Part shown: positions 3,376 through 20,384 of the stretch, piece after piece
Position numbering within the stretch: position 1 is the stretch's first letter
Layout: every line of letters starts with the position of its first letter
IMG/VR virus record: IMGVR_UViG_3300032105_000098
Location: 1 to 22,522 of that record
Length of the DNA: 22,522 bases
Source of the DNA: a virus
Reading direction: 5' to 3' (one strand)
Made by a program: the position numbers and the translations under genes
Notes under the pieces: model-generated
Database searches by the model: none
What the model saw: the letters and a program-made list of their open reading frames with translations, nothing else
Told to the model about the DNA's origin: nothing

Positions 3376-3714
3376 CTACACCCCCAACTCTTCCTGCATA
3401 CGCTTGACCGCATCCTCTATCGCCGGCTCCAGCAGATCGAGCGCGATGCTCTGCATGGAGCGGCGGCGGCTGACCCCTGACAGCCATTTGAGCATGGCAT
3501 GGTGCTTCCCTCCCATCCGCAAAAGAAACTTCTCCGTTCCCCCCACCTCGAAATCAGGGGTGGTTTCCCCTTTGCGGCTTTGCGCCTTGGCGTGAGGCGC
3601 TGTTTGCGGTTCGGGGTTTTTGGGTTGGCGAGGTTCCCCCGCCCCTTCCAGAAATTCCTCCAGGTCGCGGGGCCCTGGCGGGCGAGTCGTCAGGCCGGGC
3701 CTCTTCCCGCTCAT
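3376..3714 (-). CDS. Small ribbon-helix-helix-like partition partner of ParA
   Basis: This 112-aa protein starts at the ATG at 3714, which overlaps the ParA stop (ATGA), so the two are translated together. The N-terminal half is Pro-, Gly- and charge-rich and probably disordered. The C-terminal 55 residues (from EKFLLRM) form a short strand followed by two helices, as in ribbon-helix-helix proteins such as ParG that pair with small ParA ATPases. Gene order, size and position support a centromere-binding and autorepressor role. The fold is inferred from pattern, not from a recognisable signature. The stretch encoding PHAKAQSRK (3571-3597) is a copy of a repeat also found at 5123-5149. Confidence in the gene is high; in the RHH assignment it is moderate. 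Confidence 0.68.
   Translation of the reverse strand: MSGKRPGLTTRPPGPRDLEEFLEGAGEPRQPKNPEPQTAPHAKAQSRKGETTPDFEVGGTEKFLLRMGGKHHAMLKWLSGVSRRRSMQSIALDLLEPAIEDAVKRMQEELGV
3571..3597 (-). repeat. 27-bp GCAAAGGCGCAAAG-type repeat inside the RHH-like gene
   Basis: Read on the minus strand, this 27-bp stretch matches 5123-5149 of the plus strand at 25 of 27 bases (CCTCACGC, then AAAGGCGC-type units). It lies in the low-complexity N-terminal half of the RHH-like protein, where it encodes PHAKAQSRK. Confidence 0.75.
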
Positions 3715-4367
3715 GCGAAAACCTCCCCGTACAGCGCCCGCAGTTCCTTTGCCGCCTTGGCGTCCGGCGGCTGGTCCTCTACGGCGCACAGCCCCGCCCG
3801 CACGGCGTACCGGTGGGCTATCCGGTCGTACAGCACCGTTCGCGCCACCCCCAGGCCACCGCCGTCCGCATGGGCAAATTGGCCCGCCCCTTCCCAGGCC
3901 TGCCCGGCCTCCGCCGAGGCGGGGTTGGGGTTGGCCCGGTTGATAACGACCCACCCCCGCAGCGCCGGATTGAGCGCCTGGGCTTGCTCCACCAGCTCCC
4001 CCATCATGGCGAGCGTCCAGATGTCGAACTGTCCCGGCGTCACCGGAACGTATATCCGCTCGGCGACGGCCATTGCCCCCCGCAGCTCCAGCGAATCCCG
4101 CCCGCCCGCGTCAACGATCACGTCCCCGTACCGCCGGGCCAGGTCGCGCAGATCGGCGGCCAGGGACTTGCCGAACTTGCTCACGCAGGGGACGCGCGGC
4201 TCCTGCCCCGCCTCATCCCGCGTGGCCGCCCATGCCGACGCGCTCCCCTGCTTGTCCGTGTCCACCAGCAGCACGTCCCGCCCGGCCAGCATCCGCAGCA
4301 CCGCCAGGGCCGTGGCGATCGTGGTCTTGCCGGTTCCGCCCTTCTCCCCGCCGATCAACACGATCAT
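3711..4367 (-). CDS. parA: ParA-family partition ATPase
   Basis: This 218-aa protein has the deviant Walker A motif KGGTGKTT at residues 9-16, with the signature lysine at the first position. It also has VDTDKQGS (35-42, A' motif) and DVIVDAGG (82-89, Walker B region). The length fits the small ParF-type (Ib) ATPases, which lack an N-terminal DNA-binding domain and work with small RHH partners. Such ATPases bind the nucleoid and distribute plasmid or prophage copies. The ATG at 4367 has a strong AGGAGG at 4374-4379. The gene overlaps its downstream partner, and a phased repeat site lies just upstream. Together these make a complete partition cassette, implying an extrachromosomal lysogenic state. 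Confidence 0.92.
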   Translation of the reverse strand: MIVLIGGEKGGTGKTTIATALAVLRMLAGRDVLLVDTDKQGSASAWAATRDEAGQEPRVPCVSKFGKSLAADLRDLARRYGDVIVDAGGRDSLELRGAMAVAERIYVPVTPGQFDIWTLAMMGELVEQAQALNPALRGWVVINRANPNPASAEAGQAWEGAGQFAHADGGGLGVARTVLYDRIAHRYAVRAGLCAVEDQPPDAKAAKELRALYGEVFA

Positions 4368-4954: not shown

Positions 4955-5872
4955 ATGGATAACACGGAATTCACAACGATTCAAGCAAAACGCCGGGCGA
5001 TGATCGCCCGCGCCCGCGCCAATTCGCGCCCCGTTCTCCACCTCATTCCCCCGCGCTCTCGCCCCGGCTTTCAAGCTCCCGTGCCGGCGCCGGAGGTTAT
5101 TCGGGAACCAGGGACAACGACGCCTCACGCAAAGGCGCAAAGGCGCAAACCAGGAACCGGGAACCAGAAACTAGCAACCCCGCAACGCAAGGCCCACGTA
5201 GCGCATATTCGAGGCCCCCTTGCGCTCCGCCTGCCATCGGTGGGCGATCTCACACCCCATGCGCCGGGCAATCCCCTTGATTGCCCGGCCTGCTATTTCC
5301 CCGTCCCGCGTGGCCCCCGGCACCCCCCGCGTGAAACCCGCCAGCCTCCCCAGCGCGGCGGGCATGTTCCCCAGCTTGAGATTCAACCCCTCGCCCAGCG
5401 TCAGCACCAGCCCAAGCCGCTCTCCCCGCGCAACGGGCCGCCGGGCGGCGATGATGCCCGCCTGCTCCCAGGGGGAGCCGAAGGCGTCCAGGTCGAAAAT
5501 ATTGAACAGTGCCAGGTCAATGCACCGCAGCACCCGCCGGTTGTCCGCGCAGAACATCGTGCGGCCGTCCAGGTAGAGCTTGCTGTCGCAACCCTCGTAG
5601 TGGGCGGCCAGCCTCCAGACCGCCTTGTGAAGCTCCCCCGCCCCGGCGAAGGCGTCGAATACCCGCGCCTCTCGGGCCACCACGAACCGAAGCACGTTTT
5701 CCCGGATTTCAACCCTGGCCCCCCAGACCGCCGCGGAATGGTGCTTCTTCGTAGTGGCTTTAAGGGCGCTCCCAAAGCCCATTACAGGCCCTCTATTGCC
5801 GCAACGGTGCCTACCTCTACCGATACCTCCCCCAGGTCGGCCATTGCGGCTTTGAGCCGGTCAAGGGCCTGA
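4955..5872 (+). CDS. Doubtful ORF: plausible N-terminal segment, then antisense read-through
   Basis: The ATG at 4955 has a good GGAGAA ribosome binding site. The first 50 or so residues (MDNTEFTTIQAKRRAMIARA onward) look like a real basic protein. After the repeats at 5103-5170 the frame has no stop and continues to 5872 entirely antisense to the convincing minus-strand gene at 5171-5782. There the composition turns Pro- and Arg-rich, as chance frames in GC-rich DNA do. Most likely a short real gene lost its own stop codon when the repeats arrived, or only its 5' part is functional. I know no family for it. Confidence 0.3.
   Translation: MDNTEFTTIQAKRRAMIARARANSRPVLHLIPPRSRPGFQAPVPAPEVIREPGTTTPHAKAQRRKPGTGNQKLATPQRKAHVAHIRGPLALRLPSVGDLTPHAPGNPLDCPACYFPVPRGPRHPPRETRQPPQRGGHVPQLEIQPLAQRQHQPKPLSPRNGPPGGDDARLLPGGAEGVQVENIEQCQVNAPQHPPVVRAEHRAAVQVELAVATLVVGGQPPDRLVKLPRPGEGVEYPRLSGHHEPKHVFPDFNPGPPDRRGMVLLRSGFKGAPKAHYRPSIAATVPTSTDTSPRSAIAALSRSRA
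5103..5170 (+). repeat. Compound repeat: GCAAAGGCGCAAAG unit followed by AACCAGGAACC units
   Basis: A CCTCACGCAAAGGCGC-type unit (5123-5149) is flanked by GGGAACCAGGG (5102-5112) and by ACCAGGAACCGGGAACCAG-like units (5149-5170). The AACCAGGAACC family recurs at about 466, 18831, 20838 and 21385, always in plus orientation. The minus-strand gene to the right ends exactly at this block, its TAG being inside the last unit. Confidence 0.75.
5171..5782 (-). CDS. SAM-dependent methyltransferase-fold protein (Trm1-like motifs)
   Basis: This 203-aa protein has a class I methyltransferase layout. VFDAFAGAGE (41-50) matches the SAM-binding loop, the acidic residue in YEGCDSK (62-68) follows as expected for ribose contact, and FDLDAFGSPW (96-105) resembles the DxDPFGSP motif of Trm1-type tRNA methyltransferases at the motif IV position. 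The substrate (DNA, RNA or other) is unknown. The ATG at 5782 overlaps the stop of the ParB-like gene by one base (TAATG), so the two are coupled. It is the last gene of the leftward operon before the terminator at 4871-4910. It is short for a complete RNA methyltransferase and has no visible recognition domain, so an inactive or regulatory relative is possible. Confidence 0.6.
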   Translation of the reverse strand: MGFGSALKATTKKHHSAAVWGARVEIRENVLRFVVAREARVFDAFAGAGELHKAVWRLAAHYEGCDSKLYLDGRTMFCADNRRVLRCIDLALFNIFDLDAFGSPWEQAGIIAARRPVARGERLGLVLTLGEGLNLKLGNMPAALGRLAGFTRGVPGATRDGEIAGRAIKGIARRMGCEIAHRWQAERKGASNMRYVGLALRGC

Positions 5873-6393
5873 GCCTGTTGCGGTAGGGGGCCTTTCACGA
5901 CTATCCAAAACCGGTCGGAAACCTCCCTGGTTTCGATCTCTTCCACCGTCAGCGGCGAACCCCCGGCAAGAACCGCATCGAGTTCCGAGGGGGCGAACCC
6001 CAGCGCATCGAGCGGAAATTCTCCCGCCAGCTCCGCCAGTTCTTCCCGCAACAGATGATCGTCCCATTGGCCGTTTTCCGTCAGCTTGTTGTCCGCGATG
6101 CGGTAGGCCCGTTTTTGCGCCTCGCTCCACCCGGTGGCCACCAGCACGGGAACCTCGCGCATCCCCAGTTCCCGCGCCGCCAGCAGCCGCCCGTGGCCCG
6201 CGATCAGCTCCTCTTTTTCGTCTACCAGCAGCGGAATCGTGAAGCCGAACTCCTTGATGCTGGCCGCGATCTGCCCCACGTGCGCCGGGGAATGGGAGCG
6301 GCGGTTGCGCGCGGACGGCACCAGGTCGCGGACGGGCCGCAGCGAAACCTCGCGCTGAACCCCCTTGGGCGGGCTGTCTTTTTTTCGCGCCAT
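5782..6393 (-). CDS. ParB/sulfiredoxin-domain protein
   Basis: This 203-aa protein has an N-terminal ParB/Srx domain: NRRSHSPAHVGQIAASIKEF (30-49), a hydrophobic strand (TIPLLVD) and the signature IAGHGRLLAARELG (64-77), followed by a helical region (YRIADNKL) as in phage ParB-like proteins. No clear helix-turn-helix of chromosomal ParB is seen. Members bind or cleave DNA, and some act in nucleotide or base chemistry. This one lies between the baseplate spike gene and a methyltransferase-fold gene, not beside parA, so it is unlikely to be ParA's partner. The ATG at 6393 has GGAGGT upstream, 13 bp after the spike stop. A DNA-modification or anti-restriction role is inference. Confidence 0.8.
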   Translation of the reverse strand: MARKKDSPPKGVQREVSLRPVRDLVPSARNRRSHSPAHVGQIAASIKEFGFTIPLLVDEKEELIAGHGRLLAARELGMREVPVLVATGWSEAQKRAYRIADNKLTENGQWDDHLLREELAELAGEFPLDALGFAPSELDAVLAGGSPLTVEEIETREVSDRFWIVVKGPLPQQAQALDRLKAAMADLGEVSVEVGTVAAIEGL

Positions 6394-8104: not shown

Positions 8105-8134
8105 TTGAAAAAGGTCATTAACACGATTTAAACT
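8105..8134 (+). promoter_or_regulatory. Promoter-like sequence for the antirepressor leader
   Basis: TTGAAA (8105-8110, five of six matches to the sigma-70 -35 box) and TAAACT (8129-8134, four of six to TATAAT) are separated by 18 bp in an AT-rich island. A start near 8141 would place the first RNA stem (8147-8164) at the 5' end of the transcript. The same island lies upstream of the leftward hub gene, so overlapping divergent promoters are possible. Confidence 0.5.
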
Positions 8135-8140
8135 TACCTC

Positions 8141-8334
8141 GTCGCCCCTGGAGGACAGTCCAGGTGCCCGGCTGCCTGGGTGTTACGATCCTGGAAAACG
8201 CCGGGGCGGAAAACTCCGCAGTACGGCGCGCCTTCCGGGTCGGTACGGCCCGGAACGTTTCAGGGATGCTCGCACCGGGTCGTGCCGCGCGAGCGGATGC
8301 TGTTCCATCCGCCCCTGGCGTTCCGGGTTTTTTT
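8141..8334 (+). ncRNA. Structured leader RNA with alternative terminator/antiterminator stems
   Basis: No gene is seen here, but a chain of perfect stems is: CCTGGA/TCCAGG (8147-8152/8159-8164), GCGGA/TCCGC (8206-8210/8215-8219) and TTCCGGG/CCCGGAA (8233-8239/8249-8255). CCCGGAACG (8249-8257) is also perfectly complementary to CGTTCCGGG (8319-8327), which is followed at once by T7 (8328-8334). The second pairing extends through CAGGG/CCCTG (8261-8265/8313-8317) and encloses two hairpins (GCTCGC/GCGAGC 8268-8273/8289-8294; GGATG/CATCC 8295-8299/8306-8310), giving a three-way junction on a terminator stem. The two pairings of 8249-8257 exclude each other, as in an attenuator or riboswitch. A free-standing small RNA ending at 8334 is the alternative. 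I match it to no known RNA family. Confidence 0.6.
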
Positions 8335-8358
8335 CAAAGGCTCGGGCGCCCGGGGTGC

Positions 8359-8379
8359 CCTCCTCTCCCCCAGAGGAGG
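8359..8379 (+). promoter_or_regulatory. Hairpin hiding the antirepressor ribosome binding site
   Basis: CCTCCTCT (8359-8366) pairs over 8 bp with AGAGGAGG (8372-8379) across a C5 loop. The right arm is the Shine-Dalgarno sequence of the gene starting at 8384. In this form translation would be blocked until the stem opens. GGGC (8344-8347) can pair with GCCC (8357-8360), which takes away the outer bases of the left arm, so an alternative fold could expose the site. Confidence 0.65.
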
Positions 8380-8383
8380 CGAC

Positions 8384-8905
8384 ATGTCCGACCAACTTCC
8401 CCTTGACTTGGCCTTCGACTTTGAGGGTCATCCCATTCATCCCTTTTTGCATAACGGCCAGCCCGCCTGGGAGACCGGCGAAGTTGCCGCCGCGCTCGGT
8501 ATGGCCGACGCCGCTAAAGGTGTCCGGGAGTCGCCGATCACCGAAAAGGGGCTGGATTACGACGTTGCTCAGTCGGAAATCCTGCCCTGGAAACGGAAAA
8601 ACCGTCTCCAGGGTCAGTCTCGCGCCGTCACGATCCTCTACGAATCGGGTTTGTATGCTCTCGTGCTTCGCTCCAACAAGCCCGCCGCGATGCGCTTCAC
8701 CCGCTGGGTGGTGCGCGACGTGCTTCCTGAAATACGGGCGACGGGCTCCTTTTCGCTGGCTCGGGTCGGGTTGGATCGGGATAAACTGGAGCCCGGAACC
8801 CTGATAAAACTGCTTGATCAGGAGCGCAAGGGCAGCCGTTACGCCCGCGACATCCTGGATTCGCTGGGGCTGCGGCCGGCGGAAGGGGGCGGAAATGGCG
8901 TCTAA
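8384..8905 (+). CDS. BRO-N domain antirepressor-like protein
   Basis: This 173-aa protein consists mainly of a BRO-N domain: a short beta-rich N terminus (GHPIHPFLHNGQPAWETGEV), AAALGM, then the diagnostic run LYESGLYALVLRSNKPA (85-101) and FTRWVVRDVLPEIRATGSF (105-123). In phages this DNA-binding domain is found in antirepressors that counter the lysogeny repressor. The usual C-terminal ANT or KilA-C domain is replaced here by about 50 residues ending in a helical DRDKLEPGTLIKLLDQER part. The ATG at 8384 has AGAGGAGG before it, buried in a hairpin. The gene runs rightward between two leftward structural operons, so it has its own promoter. It overlaps the next gene by 11 bases. Confidence 0.85.
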   Translation: MSDQLPLDLAFDFEGHPIHPFLHNGQPAWETGEVAAALGMADAAKGVRESPITEKGLDYDVAQSEILPWKRKNRLQGQSRAVTILYESGLYALVLRSNKPAAMRFTRWVVRDVLPEIRATGSFSLARVGLDRDKLEPGTLIKLLDQERKGSRYARDILDSLGLRPAEGGGNGV

Positions 8906-9173
8906 AAATTCCTTCCCGCGGCTGGAAACGGACGGGGTGCCCAGCGAAGGGCTAGGCCCTGTGTACGAAAACCTGGCCTGGGCTGCGTTGGCGGGCAATC
9001 GTCCCACCCGCATGGTGATCGGCCTGTTCCAGATGGCCGTGCTGCGATACGACCTCGCCTTTGAAGAGCACACTCCCTGTCCCAACGTCTCTCTGTCGGT
9101 CAGCGCGGATTCGCGGTACATCACCATGACCATTGACACCACCCATCCTTTCGGCAGCAAAGCCCGGAGTTGA
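8895..9173 (+). CDS. Unknown 92-aa protein coupled to the antirepressor-like gene
   Basis: I do not recognise the family. The ATG at 8895 lies inside the end of the BRO-N gene (11-base overlap, GGAAGGGGG as ribosome binding site), so it is co-translated. The protein is soluble: a polar N terminus, a helical centre (ENLAWAALAGNRPTRMVIGL) and a C-terminal pair of strands (NVSLSVSADSRYITMTIDT). Its only genetic context is the antirepressor-like gene, followed directly by a terminator. That makes it a candidate partner or modulator of the switch, on position only. Confidence 0.6.
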   Translation: MASKNSFPRLETDGVPSEGLGPVYENLAWAALAGNRPTRMVIGLFQMAVLRYDLAFEEHTPCPNVSLSVSADSRYITMTIDTTHPFGSKARS

Positions 9174-9179
9174 CCCATC

Positions 9180-9204
9180 GGGGCCCCGCGAGGGGCCCCC
9201 TTTT
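9180..9204 (+). terminator. Intrinsic terminator after the antirepressor operon
   Basis: GGGGCCCC (9180-9187) pairs with GGGGCCCC (9192-9199) across a GCGA loop and is followed by C and TTTT (9201-9204). It starts 6 bp after the stop of the 92-aa gene and separates the two-gene rightward unit from the convergent leftward operon, which ends at 9225. Confidence 0.8.
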
Positions 9205-9224: not shown

Positions 9225-9827
9225 CTACGGGTCCGGATAAAACCGGCTGGCGAATTTGTCGAACAGGGAAAAGGTCTTGAGAACCCAGCCCTCCGGGGCC
9301 GCGGGCGTCGCCGGCGTGCCGGAGGTGTCCGTTGTTTCCGGCGGAACGCCGGGCGGGGCCACCGCCGCCGGGGCGATCCGCTCGCGCGTGATTTCGGGAA
9401 TGCTCCGTTCTTCGATCAGCGTGAACTTGACGTTCCAGATGCGCTGGGTATCGTCCGGGACTACCTGGAAGAAATCCGCGAAGCGGGCCTGCCTGACCCC
9501 CAGCGCCTCAGCGGTGGGGTCGGTTAGCGCGTACAGTTTCGGCACCCCCGGCGAGCCCACCACCACCCCCAGTACGGCAAACCCGTCCGGGCTCAGCTCG
9601 CCGGCGGCGTCCGTGCGGGCCTGAAACAATTGCCGCAGACGCGCCAGGTCGGCCCCGTCACGGAAGCGCACCTTGCAGGAAACCCCGATAACCCATGCCT
9701 TCCAGCCCTGGTGGCTGGAGCCGGTGCCGGAGGTTTCCCCCGACTGATCCTTCCTGACCAGCTGCCCATTCGCCGTGACGCGGTGGTCATAGCCGGGCAG
9801 CGCCTCGCCGTCCAGATAGATCATCAT
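9225..9827 (-). CDS. Phage baseplate-complex-like protein
   Basis: This 200-aa protein is the last gene of the terminase-portal operon. The N terminus (MMIYLDGEALPGYDHRV), a central VSCKVRFRDGADLARLRQLF, and a strand-rich YALTDPTAEALGVRQARF followed by WNVKFTLIEERSIPE resemble proteins annotated in other prophages as baseplate complex protein, by my recollection. The Pro/Thr-rich segment near 160-180 looks like a linker to a short C-terminal helix (LFDKFASRFYPDP). The start is one of two adjacent ATGs at 9827 and 9824, 6 bp after the portal stop. A role in tail assembly is likely; the exact part is uncertain. Confidence 0.55.
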   Translation of the reverse strand: MMIYLDGEALPGYDHRVTANGQLVRKDQSGETSGTGSSHQGWKAWVIGVSCKVRFRDGADLARLRQLFQARTDAAGELSPDGFAVLGVVVGSPGVPKLYALTDPTAEALGVRQARFADFFQVVPDDTQRIWNVKFTLIEERSIPEITRERIAPAAVAPPGVPPETTDTSGTPATPAAPEGWVLKTFSLFDKFASRFYPDP

Positions 9828-19064: not shown

Positions 19065-20384
19065 ATGGCACTCGGTAAAGTCTCCATCACCACCGCCGTC
19101 GCCGGCACGCCCACCTTTGCCGAGCCGGAAGGGGTCGGCCTTTTTCTCGGCGAAGTCACCAGCGGGGACGGTTCGCTGAAGGCGATCGGACGGGAAACCG
19201 ACCTGGTGGCGCTGTTCGGTGCCGCGCTCGACCTGGTGGACACCCTGGAGGCCGCCCGTCAGAACGGCGGCCCCAACTGGAAAGCCTGGGCCTACGGCCA
19301 CAAGGATGTGCAAAAGACCATTGGCGTCGCCGCCGCGGTGGACAAGACCGGTGGCAAGGTGGGGATCCCCGTCACGGCGCACGGCATCCCCACCGGGGAG
19401 ACCATCACCATCGCCGGCACCACCAATTACGACGCTTCCTACGCGGTTGACCCGGACACCACCGTCAATGAAATCGTCATCGTGGCGGCCTTTGCGATTG
19501 AAACGTTCGACGGGACTGAGACGGTCACCTGGAACCAGACGTGGGAGACGGTGATAGCCGCCGCCCTCCCAGGGTGCGACCCCGAGTTCCTGGTGATCTG
19601 CAAGCCGGTGATCGCCGGGGCGGAGCTGACCGACCTGCAAACCGAACTGACGACCCAACTCGCCTTGCACCGGCGAATGTTCGCCATCGCCGCCTTCCGG
19701 GGCTACCTGACCGTGACGGACGCCGACTGGAGCGCCTACCTAACTACCGCAGGGGCCATCACCAACGCCATAGACGCAGCCCGCGTCATGATCGTGCCCC
19801 AGGTATTCGGCAACGAGCTGGGCGGCTTCGCGGGGCGCCTGCAAAAGGTGCTTGACGAGCGCTCCCCCAAGATCAGCCGTTCCCCCATGCGGGTCGAATC
19901 CGGCAGCGTGGTCAATCCCGGCGCCCTCGCGGCGGAGCTGCTTGACGACACGGGGGCCGCTCTGGAACTGACCCACCTGGAAGCGTTGGACGGAGACCGC
20001 TTCTCGGTTTTTCAATGGTACGTGGGCCGCGAGGGCATCTATTTCGCGGACGGGAACCTCCTGGCTGCGTCGGGGTCGAACGATCCCGCCGTGATCGAAT
20101 ACCTGCGGCTGCTGGACAAGGCGGCGCGCCGTCTCCGGCAAATTGCCATCGCCGCCATCGCCGATGATCAAGTGGTCAACACCCCGGCGGGCAACGCGGC
20201 CTTTGCCACCCGCCTCTCCCTGCCCCTGCGCCAGATGGTTGCCCTGGGCGAGATCAAACCGCTGGCCCGCGACGCCCTGGTGGTCACCTGGATCGCCGTG
20301 GACAAGGTCAAGGTCAGTTTCACCGTGCGGCCGCCCAACTCGCCCAAGGACATCACGGGCGAAATTACACTCGACACCAGTTAG
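19065..20384 (+). CDS. Contractile tail sheath protein (DUF2586-like) with inserted beta domain
   Basis: This 439-aa protein lies directly before the tube gene, as sheath genes do, and matches my memory of DUF2586 phage proteins. The N terminus (GKVSITTAV, VGLFLGEV) and C terminus (ALVVTWIAVDKVKVSFTVRP) contain the strands that link sheath subunits by donation. The middle holds a Rossmann-like core with EFLVICKPV and RMFAIAAFRGYL, and then RLSLPLRQM. Residues about 99-155 (VGIPVTAHGIPTGETITIAG, then NYDASYAV) interrupt the early core with a Gly/Thr-rich beta unit. The start has AAAGGAGCG before the ATG at 19065. The sheath contracts to drive the tube into the cell. Confidence 0.8.
   Translation: MALGKVSITTAVAGTPTFAEPEGVGLFLGEVTSGDGSLKAIGRETDLVALFGAALDLVDTLEAARQNGGPNWKAWAYGHKDVQKTIGVAAAVDKTGGKVGIPVTAHGIPTGETITIAGTTNYDASYAVDPDTTVNEIVIVAAFAIETFDGTETVTWNQTWETVIAAALPGCDPEFLVICKPVIAGAELTDLQTELTTQLALHRRMFAIAAFRGYLTVTDADWSAYLTTAGAITNAIDAARVMIVPQVFGNELGGFAGRLQKVLDERSPKISRSPMRVESGSVVNPGALAAELLDDTGAALELTHLEALDGDRFSVFQWYVGREGIYFADGNLLAASGSNDPAVIEYLRLLDKAARRLRQIAIAAIADDQVVNTPAGNAAFATRLSLPLRQMVALGEIKPLARDALVVTWIAVDKVKVSFTVRPPNSPKDITGEITLDTS

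Follow-up and report, generated by a model that had tools for sequence, protein, structure and literature searches.

A predicted terminator/antiterminator leader RNA upstream of an antirepressor-like gene in a P2-like phage

A P2-like phage appears to carry a terminator/antiterminator leader ahead of an antirepressor-like (BRO-N) gene, a reading that is well supported by the sequence and its computed folds. The logic of this predicted leader is known from other phages, but the RNA appears to fit no described family. On balance, we think it somewhat probable that the leader (8141–8334) silences the antirepressor-like gene at two levels, by terminating transcription and by burying the Shine-Dalgarno sequence. 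We infer that the RNA is made and that its termination is conditional. The features discussed are collected in Table 1; "the window" denotes the whole stretch of DNA analysed, which is an entire virus record of 22,522 bases.

Searches against Pfam and PHROG protein families identified the phage as P2-like, with a contractile tail. Nucleotide relatives of the window were absent from the phage records searched, and protein relatives of the phage share 26–44% identity. From gene order and general knowledge, we take the genes at 9827→9225 and 8079→6407 to correspond to tail genes U and D of P2. Between these – strand tail genes, and opposing the late genes, a + strand cassette is inserted that consists, in order, of a promoter, the leader, the BRO-N gene, a 92-aa ORF, and a closing terminator-like hairpin. 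The cassette (~8105–9204) is most likely a "moron" of this P2-like phage with transcription of its own, and a late tail-gene transcript from the – strand would run antisense across it, which could provide an extra layer of control. Both ORFs show gene-like codon use. The names of the protein families that it matches suggest that the BRO-N protein acts as an antirepressor; 49 nt separate its gene from the terminator. The 92-aa ORF, for which we found no relative in Pfam, PHROG, NCBIfam, or the phage records, is possibly a coupled partner of BRO-N. Elsewhere in the window, the tail sheath gene (19065–20384) encodes an insertion of ~70 residues past the N-terminal part in comparison with five P2-like sheaths. 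Genes for a ParA-like ATPase and a ParB-like protein, at 3711–4367 and 5782–6393, may hint at maintenance in the manner of a plasmid or at control of DNA modification. The window contains no tRNA genes, and we rejected on that ground the idea that the leader is an attachment site at a tRNA.

Table 1. Coordinates of the cassette, its predicted RNA elements, and the surrounding phage genes
Feature	Position	Strand	Basis or remark
Terminase, portal		–	Protein families
Capsid, endolysin, tail sheath		+	Protein families
Two baseplate genes	8079→7360, 7375→6407	–	Protein families
Sigma-70-like promoter, TTGAAA-N18-TAAACT	8105–8134	+	9/12 consensus matches
Promoter hexamers TTGAAA, TAAACT	8105–8110, 8129–8134	+	Spacer 18
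Predicted structured, non-coding leader RNA with an intrinsic terminator at its end	8141–8334	+	Fold, T7, coding scores
5′ leader segment with complementarity to the ribosome-binding region of BRO-N	8141–8177	+	Fold, shuffles
Segment A, CCUGGAA	8190–8196	+	Predicted to pair with B
Segment B, UUCCGGG (DNA TTCCGGG)	8233–8239	+	Predicted to pair with A, or with C (antiterminator)
Predicted terminator, closing stem of 12+5 bp around hairpins 8268–8294 and 8295–8310	8247–8334	+	Fold
Segment C, CCCGGAACG	8249–8257	+	Predicted to pair with B or D
Stem extension CAGGG/CCCTG	8261–8265/8313–8317	+	Inside terminator
Segment D, CGTTCCGGG	8319–8327	+	Predicted to pair with C
T7	8328–8334	+	Abuts C:D stem
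Predicted pairing partner of the 5′ leader segment, includes Shine-Dalgarno	8338–8383	+	Fold, shuffles
Perfect 8-bp hairpin CCUCCUCU-CCCCC-AGAGGAGG, predicted to bury the BRO-N Shine-Dalgarno	8359–8379	+	Fold
BRO-N Shine-Dalgarno, AGGAGG	8374–8379	+	3′ arm of the 8-bp hairpin
BRO-N domain antirepressor-like protein, 173 aa	8384–8905	+	Pfam Bro-N 1.1e-10; PHROG anti-repressor Ant 1.6e-22
Small ORF, 92 aa, overlaps BRO-N end by 11 nt	8895–9173	+	Gene-like codon use
Terminator of the cassette, perfect 8-bp hairpin followed by T4	9180–9204	+	Sequence, hairpin scan
HP1 ORF34-like baseplate protein	9827→9225	–	Protein families

The elements named in the original prediction all lie where it placed them, including the promoter-like sequence, which is present if imperfect. 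Promoter-type hexamer pairs were found twice against 0.3 expected, the cassette promoter being one of the two, and no + strand gene lies close upstream of it; the transcript is predicted to start near 8141. The 194-nt gene-free stretch had been described as folding in an ordered manner, and this was borne out by a minimum free energy of –100.8 kcal/mol, compared to –86.1 ± 4.7 in dinucleotide shuffles (z –3.14), with none of 200 shuffles as stable. Every frame of the leader received a negative coding score from codon use. When we scanned both strands of the window (450 folds of 194 nt, 30 shuffles each), the leader region ranked third (–) and fifth (+) by z-score, with similar z-scores reached by several coding regions. 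Those coding regions, a GC content of 67%, and the single instance of the RNA are what might be expected of a functionless chance structure in GC-rich sequence. We regard such an origin as very improbable, given that the fold, the T7 terminator, the Shine-Dalgarno hairpin, the promoter, and the closing terminator stand in functional order on one strand within one cassette.

The C:D pairing forms a perfect 9-bp stem that abuts T7, with 5 bp more, and encloses two hairpins. No longer perfect stem occurs beside any run of at least five T on either strand of the window (the next reaches 8 bp), which favors the earlier reading of this element as a terminator. Since the T-run is found solely on the + strand side, the direction of the element is fixed as +. 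Segment C had also been proposed to pair either upstream or downstream, and thermodynamic folding of both states supports this: constrained folding gave –96.3 kcal/mol for the antiterminator state versus –100.8 kcal/mol for the terminator state. Among growing prefixes of the RNA, B:C prevailed at most steps between 8260 and 8320, and A:B plus C:D replaced it at 8325–8330. A sequential A:B / B:C / C:D layout is completed by the fourth segment, at 8190–8196, whose presence gives B an alternative partner of its own. The leader is thus predicted to form mutually exclusive stems, one of which is followed by a U-tract, as expected of an attenuator.

The second level of silencing would act at the ribosome-binding site. 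The hairpin holding the BRO-N Shine-Dalgarno sequence is one of seven distinct perfect hairpins of at least 8 bp in 22.5 kb; it is paired with a probability of 0.92 in the RNA downstream of the terminator, and the Shine-Dalgarno sequence has a mean paired probability of 0.89–1.0 across all three RNAs folded. In a fold of 8141–8440, the 5′ end of the leader (GUCGCC, 8141–8146) pairs with GGCGAC (8378–8383) just ahead of the start codon, and more helices join the 5′ end to the ribosome-binding region, up to 8177/8338. The same GUCGCC has an unpaired probability of 0.80–0.96 in the terminated RNA. The two arrangements are near-equal in energy (–146.0 vs. –147.3), and the Shine-Dalgarno sequence is mostly paired in both. 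With 1000 shuffles of the target of each type, dinucleotide shuffling equalled this complementarity once and mononucleotide shuffling four times; 5 of 2226 places of the same geometry also reached it (its own included). These figures serve as a guide and not as a test, because the complementarity was spotted after the fact in GC-rich sequence. Binding in trans was predicted at –12.9 kcal/mol, an unexceptional value since 15 of 200 shuffled targets reach it. The Shine-Dalgarno hairpin, the pairing between the 5′ end and the ribosome region, segment A, and the closing terminator are all additions to the original prediction.

Could these elements simply keep the gene quiet? An unregulated insulator, in which a fixed terminator and the Shine-Dalgarno hairpin keep expression of a costly gene low and constant and B:C has no role, has several points in its favor: of the two final states, the terminator is the more stable, terminator and hairpin alone would account for silence, and the analysis brought no trigger to light. 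We nevertheless judge it rather unlikely, as a plain terminator would need far less length and order than the leader has (z –3.1), segment C is flanked by ready competitors on both sides, and related genes have regulated RNA leaders.

The classical attenuator layout of A:B / B:C / C:D would also suit a riboswitch or attenuator in which 8147–8219 binds a ligand, a protein, or a tRNA and toggles B between its partners A and C. The original prediction had proposed such a sensing role for this 5′ part, and we found no support for it. Searching Rfam with the leader, at the gathering threshold and up to E 10, returned no match of note, whether to a riboswitch or to another family, and no homologues were found that could display a conserved aptamer core. 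The 5′ part appears to be better explained by pairing with the BRO-N ribosome-binding region than by ligand sensing. We therefore retain the terminator/antiterminator half of the leader reading and consider the sensing riboswitch a slim prospect.

Translation of the leader itself offers a further route to regulation. A GTG at 8164 with a GGAGG at 8150–8154 (spacing 9 nt) opens an 80-codon frame that overlaps the BRO-N start, and ribosomes on it would melt both the terminator and the Shine-Dalgarno hairpin, much as translational coupling operates through orf45 for anrP in the isrK operon (PMC4825925). However, the codon use of this frame (–0.31, vs. +0.23 to +0.58 for phage genes) disfavors it as a real gene, it has no family match, and its start region lies within or beside the first hairpin, all of which makes a translation-coupled leader the faintest of prospects.

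RNA control fits what is found beside related genes. We examined seven moderately similar BRO-N relatives (L084, L112, and L279–L283), one of which, L084, was left out of the count as its BRO-N frame extends past the end of the locus and the sRNA-Xcc1 there precedes another ORF. A C4, sRNA-Xcc1, or isrK RNA was located directly upstream of BRO-N in five of the six relatives with a readable upstream region: sRNA-Xcc1 in L112 and L280, isrK and C4 together in L282, C4 in L283, and, in L279 (the same place as L285), an isrK-like element below the curated cut-off (46 vs. 50 bits, E 9.5e-7) along with a weak c4-a1b1 match. The covariance-model search found no such RNA upstream of BRO-N in L281. An exact 7–9-nt complement of the ribosome site occurs 77–96 nt upstream in L112, L280, L282, and L283; in L279, the Shine-Dalgarno complement is 6 nt. 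Most other BRO-N genes from two genome samples (the phylum of a Desulfovibrio and the class of a gammaproteobacterial MAG) had no such RNA, so an upstream RNA is not a trait of all BRO-N genes. Type II hammerhead ribozymes were observed ~1.5 kb or less from two BRO-N genes of the Desulfovibrio-phylum sample (L298:549–618, – strand; L317:2983–3048, + strand). The earlier hint at c4 RNA thus holds for the relatives of the gene, but the window RNA matches none of the three families.

C4 RNAs are processed by RNase P and act in trans. They are built of a closing stem with two loops, one of which covers the ribosome site, and repress ant (PMC5320573; PMC12197685). Like C4 of P1/P7 (RF01695; c4-a1b1, RF03163), the window element is predicted to have a closing stem around two hairpins (8247–8329), ends ~50–55 nt before an antirepressor-type gene, and belongs to a leader complementary to the ribosome site. 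Unlike C4, it gave no match to RF01695 at gathering (45 bits) or E 10, its closing stem runs directly into T7, and it lacks the 7–9-nt anti-Shine-Dalgarno hairpin loop present in the C4-type leaders of the BRO-N relatives; the loop of its second hairpin, CUGUUC, has no complement at the ribosome site. The sRNA-Xcc1 RNA (RF02221) is likewise a three-stem RNA, with a second hairpin loop of similar size, and lies ~43 nt upstream of BRO-N in L112 and L280, but the window RNA has no match to its covariance model (53 bits) and its loop is not complementary to its Shine-Dalgarno sequence.

The leader of the IsrK system carries an intrinsic terminator and gives rise to a short RNA and to a read-through mRNA, which downstream pairing of the leader keeps translationally inactive; the short RNA activates the antirepressor in trans via orf45 (PMC4825925). 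The IsrK-orf45-anrP arrangement of Gifsy-1 (isrK, RF01394) resembles the window in its promoter, its terminated structured leader, and the antirepressor downstream, and, in prediction only, in the pairing of the leader with downstream ribosome-site sequence. It differs in that the window RNA has no covariance-model match at 50 bits or E 10, its terminator is a branched three-stem element, no conserved small ORF like orf45 lies between terminator and gene, and the Shine-Dalgarno sequence belongs to the antirepressor-like gene itself. The sar RNA of P22, a small antisense RNA that pairs with the ant mRNA (PMC12197685), also exerts RNA control over an antirepressor ribosome-binding site, but by description it is an antisense RNA, whereas the window RNA is the mRNA's own 5′ leader. 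As the covariance models failed and there is neither a C4 loop nor an equivalent of orf45, we claim a type of function and not membership.

The window leader is a single sequence, no homologue having been found in the viral, genome, phage, and plasmid collections searched. Phage and plasmid records returned only chance pieces of it, and P2-like relatives found via terminase and tail sheath (26–44% identical) were without the leader. The viral and genome contigs searched held no close BRO-N relative and one distant one (L283); a BRO-N search of 395 and 274 genomes at E 1e-18 found none, at a threshold too strict to inform. A model of the terminator element, built from the window sequence alone and thus of low sensitivity for diverged relatives, gave one weak match in 546 genomes (E 0.006, L323) and nothing convincing in related loci. 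We judged the L323 match to be chance, since the sequence is repetitive and no antirepressor is nearby. L323, from one of the genomes in the Desulfovibrio-phylum sample, consists of GC-rich tandem repeats. The 16-mer CCGGAACGTTTCAGGG matched 28 viral contigs, many with a common 18 nt, and these matches do not continue along the leader. The 18-nt CCGGAACGTTTCAGGGAT recurs in >20 viral contigs (L003–L030), which apparently represent one unrelated conserved locus.

Under the two-level silencing that we favor, transcripts would start from the 8105–8134 promoter and most would stop at T7, yielding an RNA of ~190 nt, while the alternative B:C pairing would let a fraction read through. In the read-through mRNA, the 8359–8379 hairpin or the leader's own 5′ end would bury the BRO-N Shine-Dalgarno sequence. 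The short terminated RNA may in addition act in trans on the Shine-Dalgarno site, blocking it as C4 does or activating it as IsrK does. A bolder and more doubtful proposal, which we offer tentatively, is that the leader represents a new family of antirepressor-control RNAs, in which the three-stem element is both terminator and switch and the anti-Shine-Dalgarno sequence sits at the 5′ end of the transcript, with an origin separate from those of C4, isrK, and sRNA-Xcc1.

Antirepressors decide prophage dormancy and can also mediate cross-talk from one prophage to another. The leader, if confirmed, would add a further RNA design beside the C4, isrK, and sRNA-Xcc1 silencing group and would suggest that RNA control of antirepressor-like genes recurs with unrelated sequences. 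The survey of BRO-N relatives, with a known antirepressor-type RNA in five of the six whose upstream region was readable, turns this into a testable general statement on the control of antirepressors by RNA.
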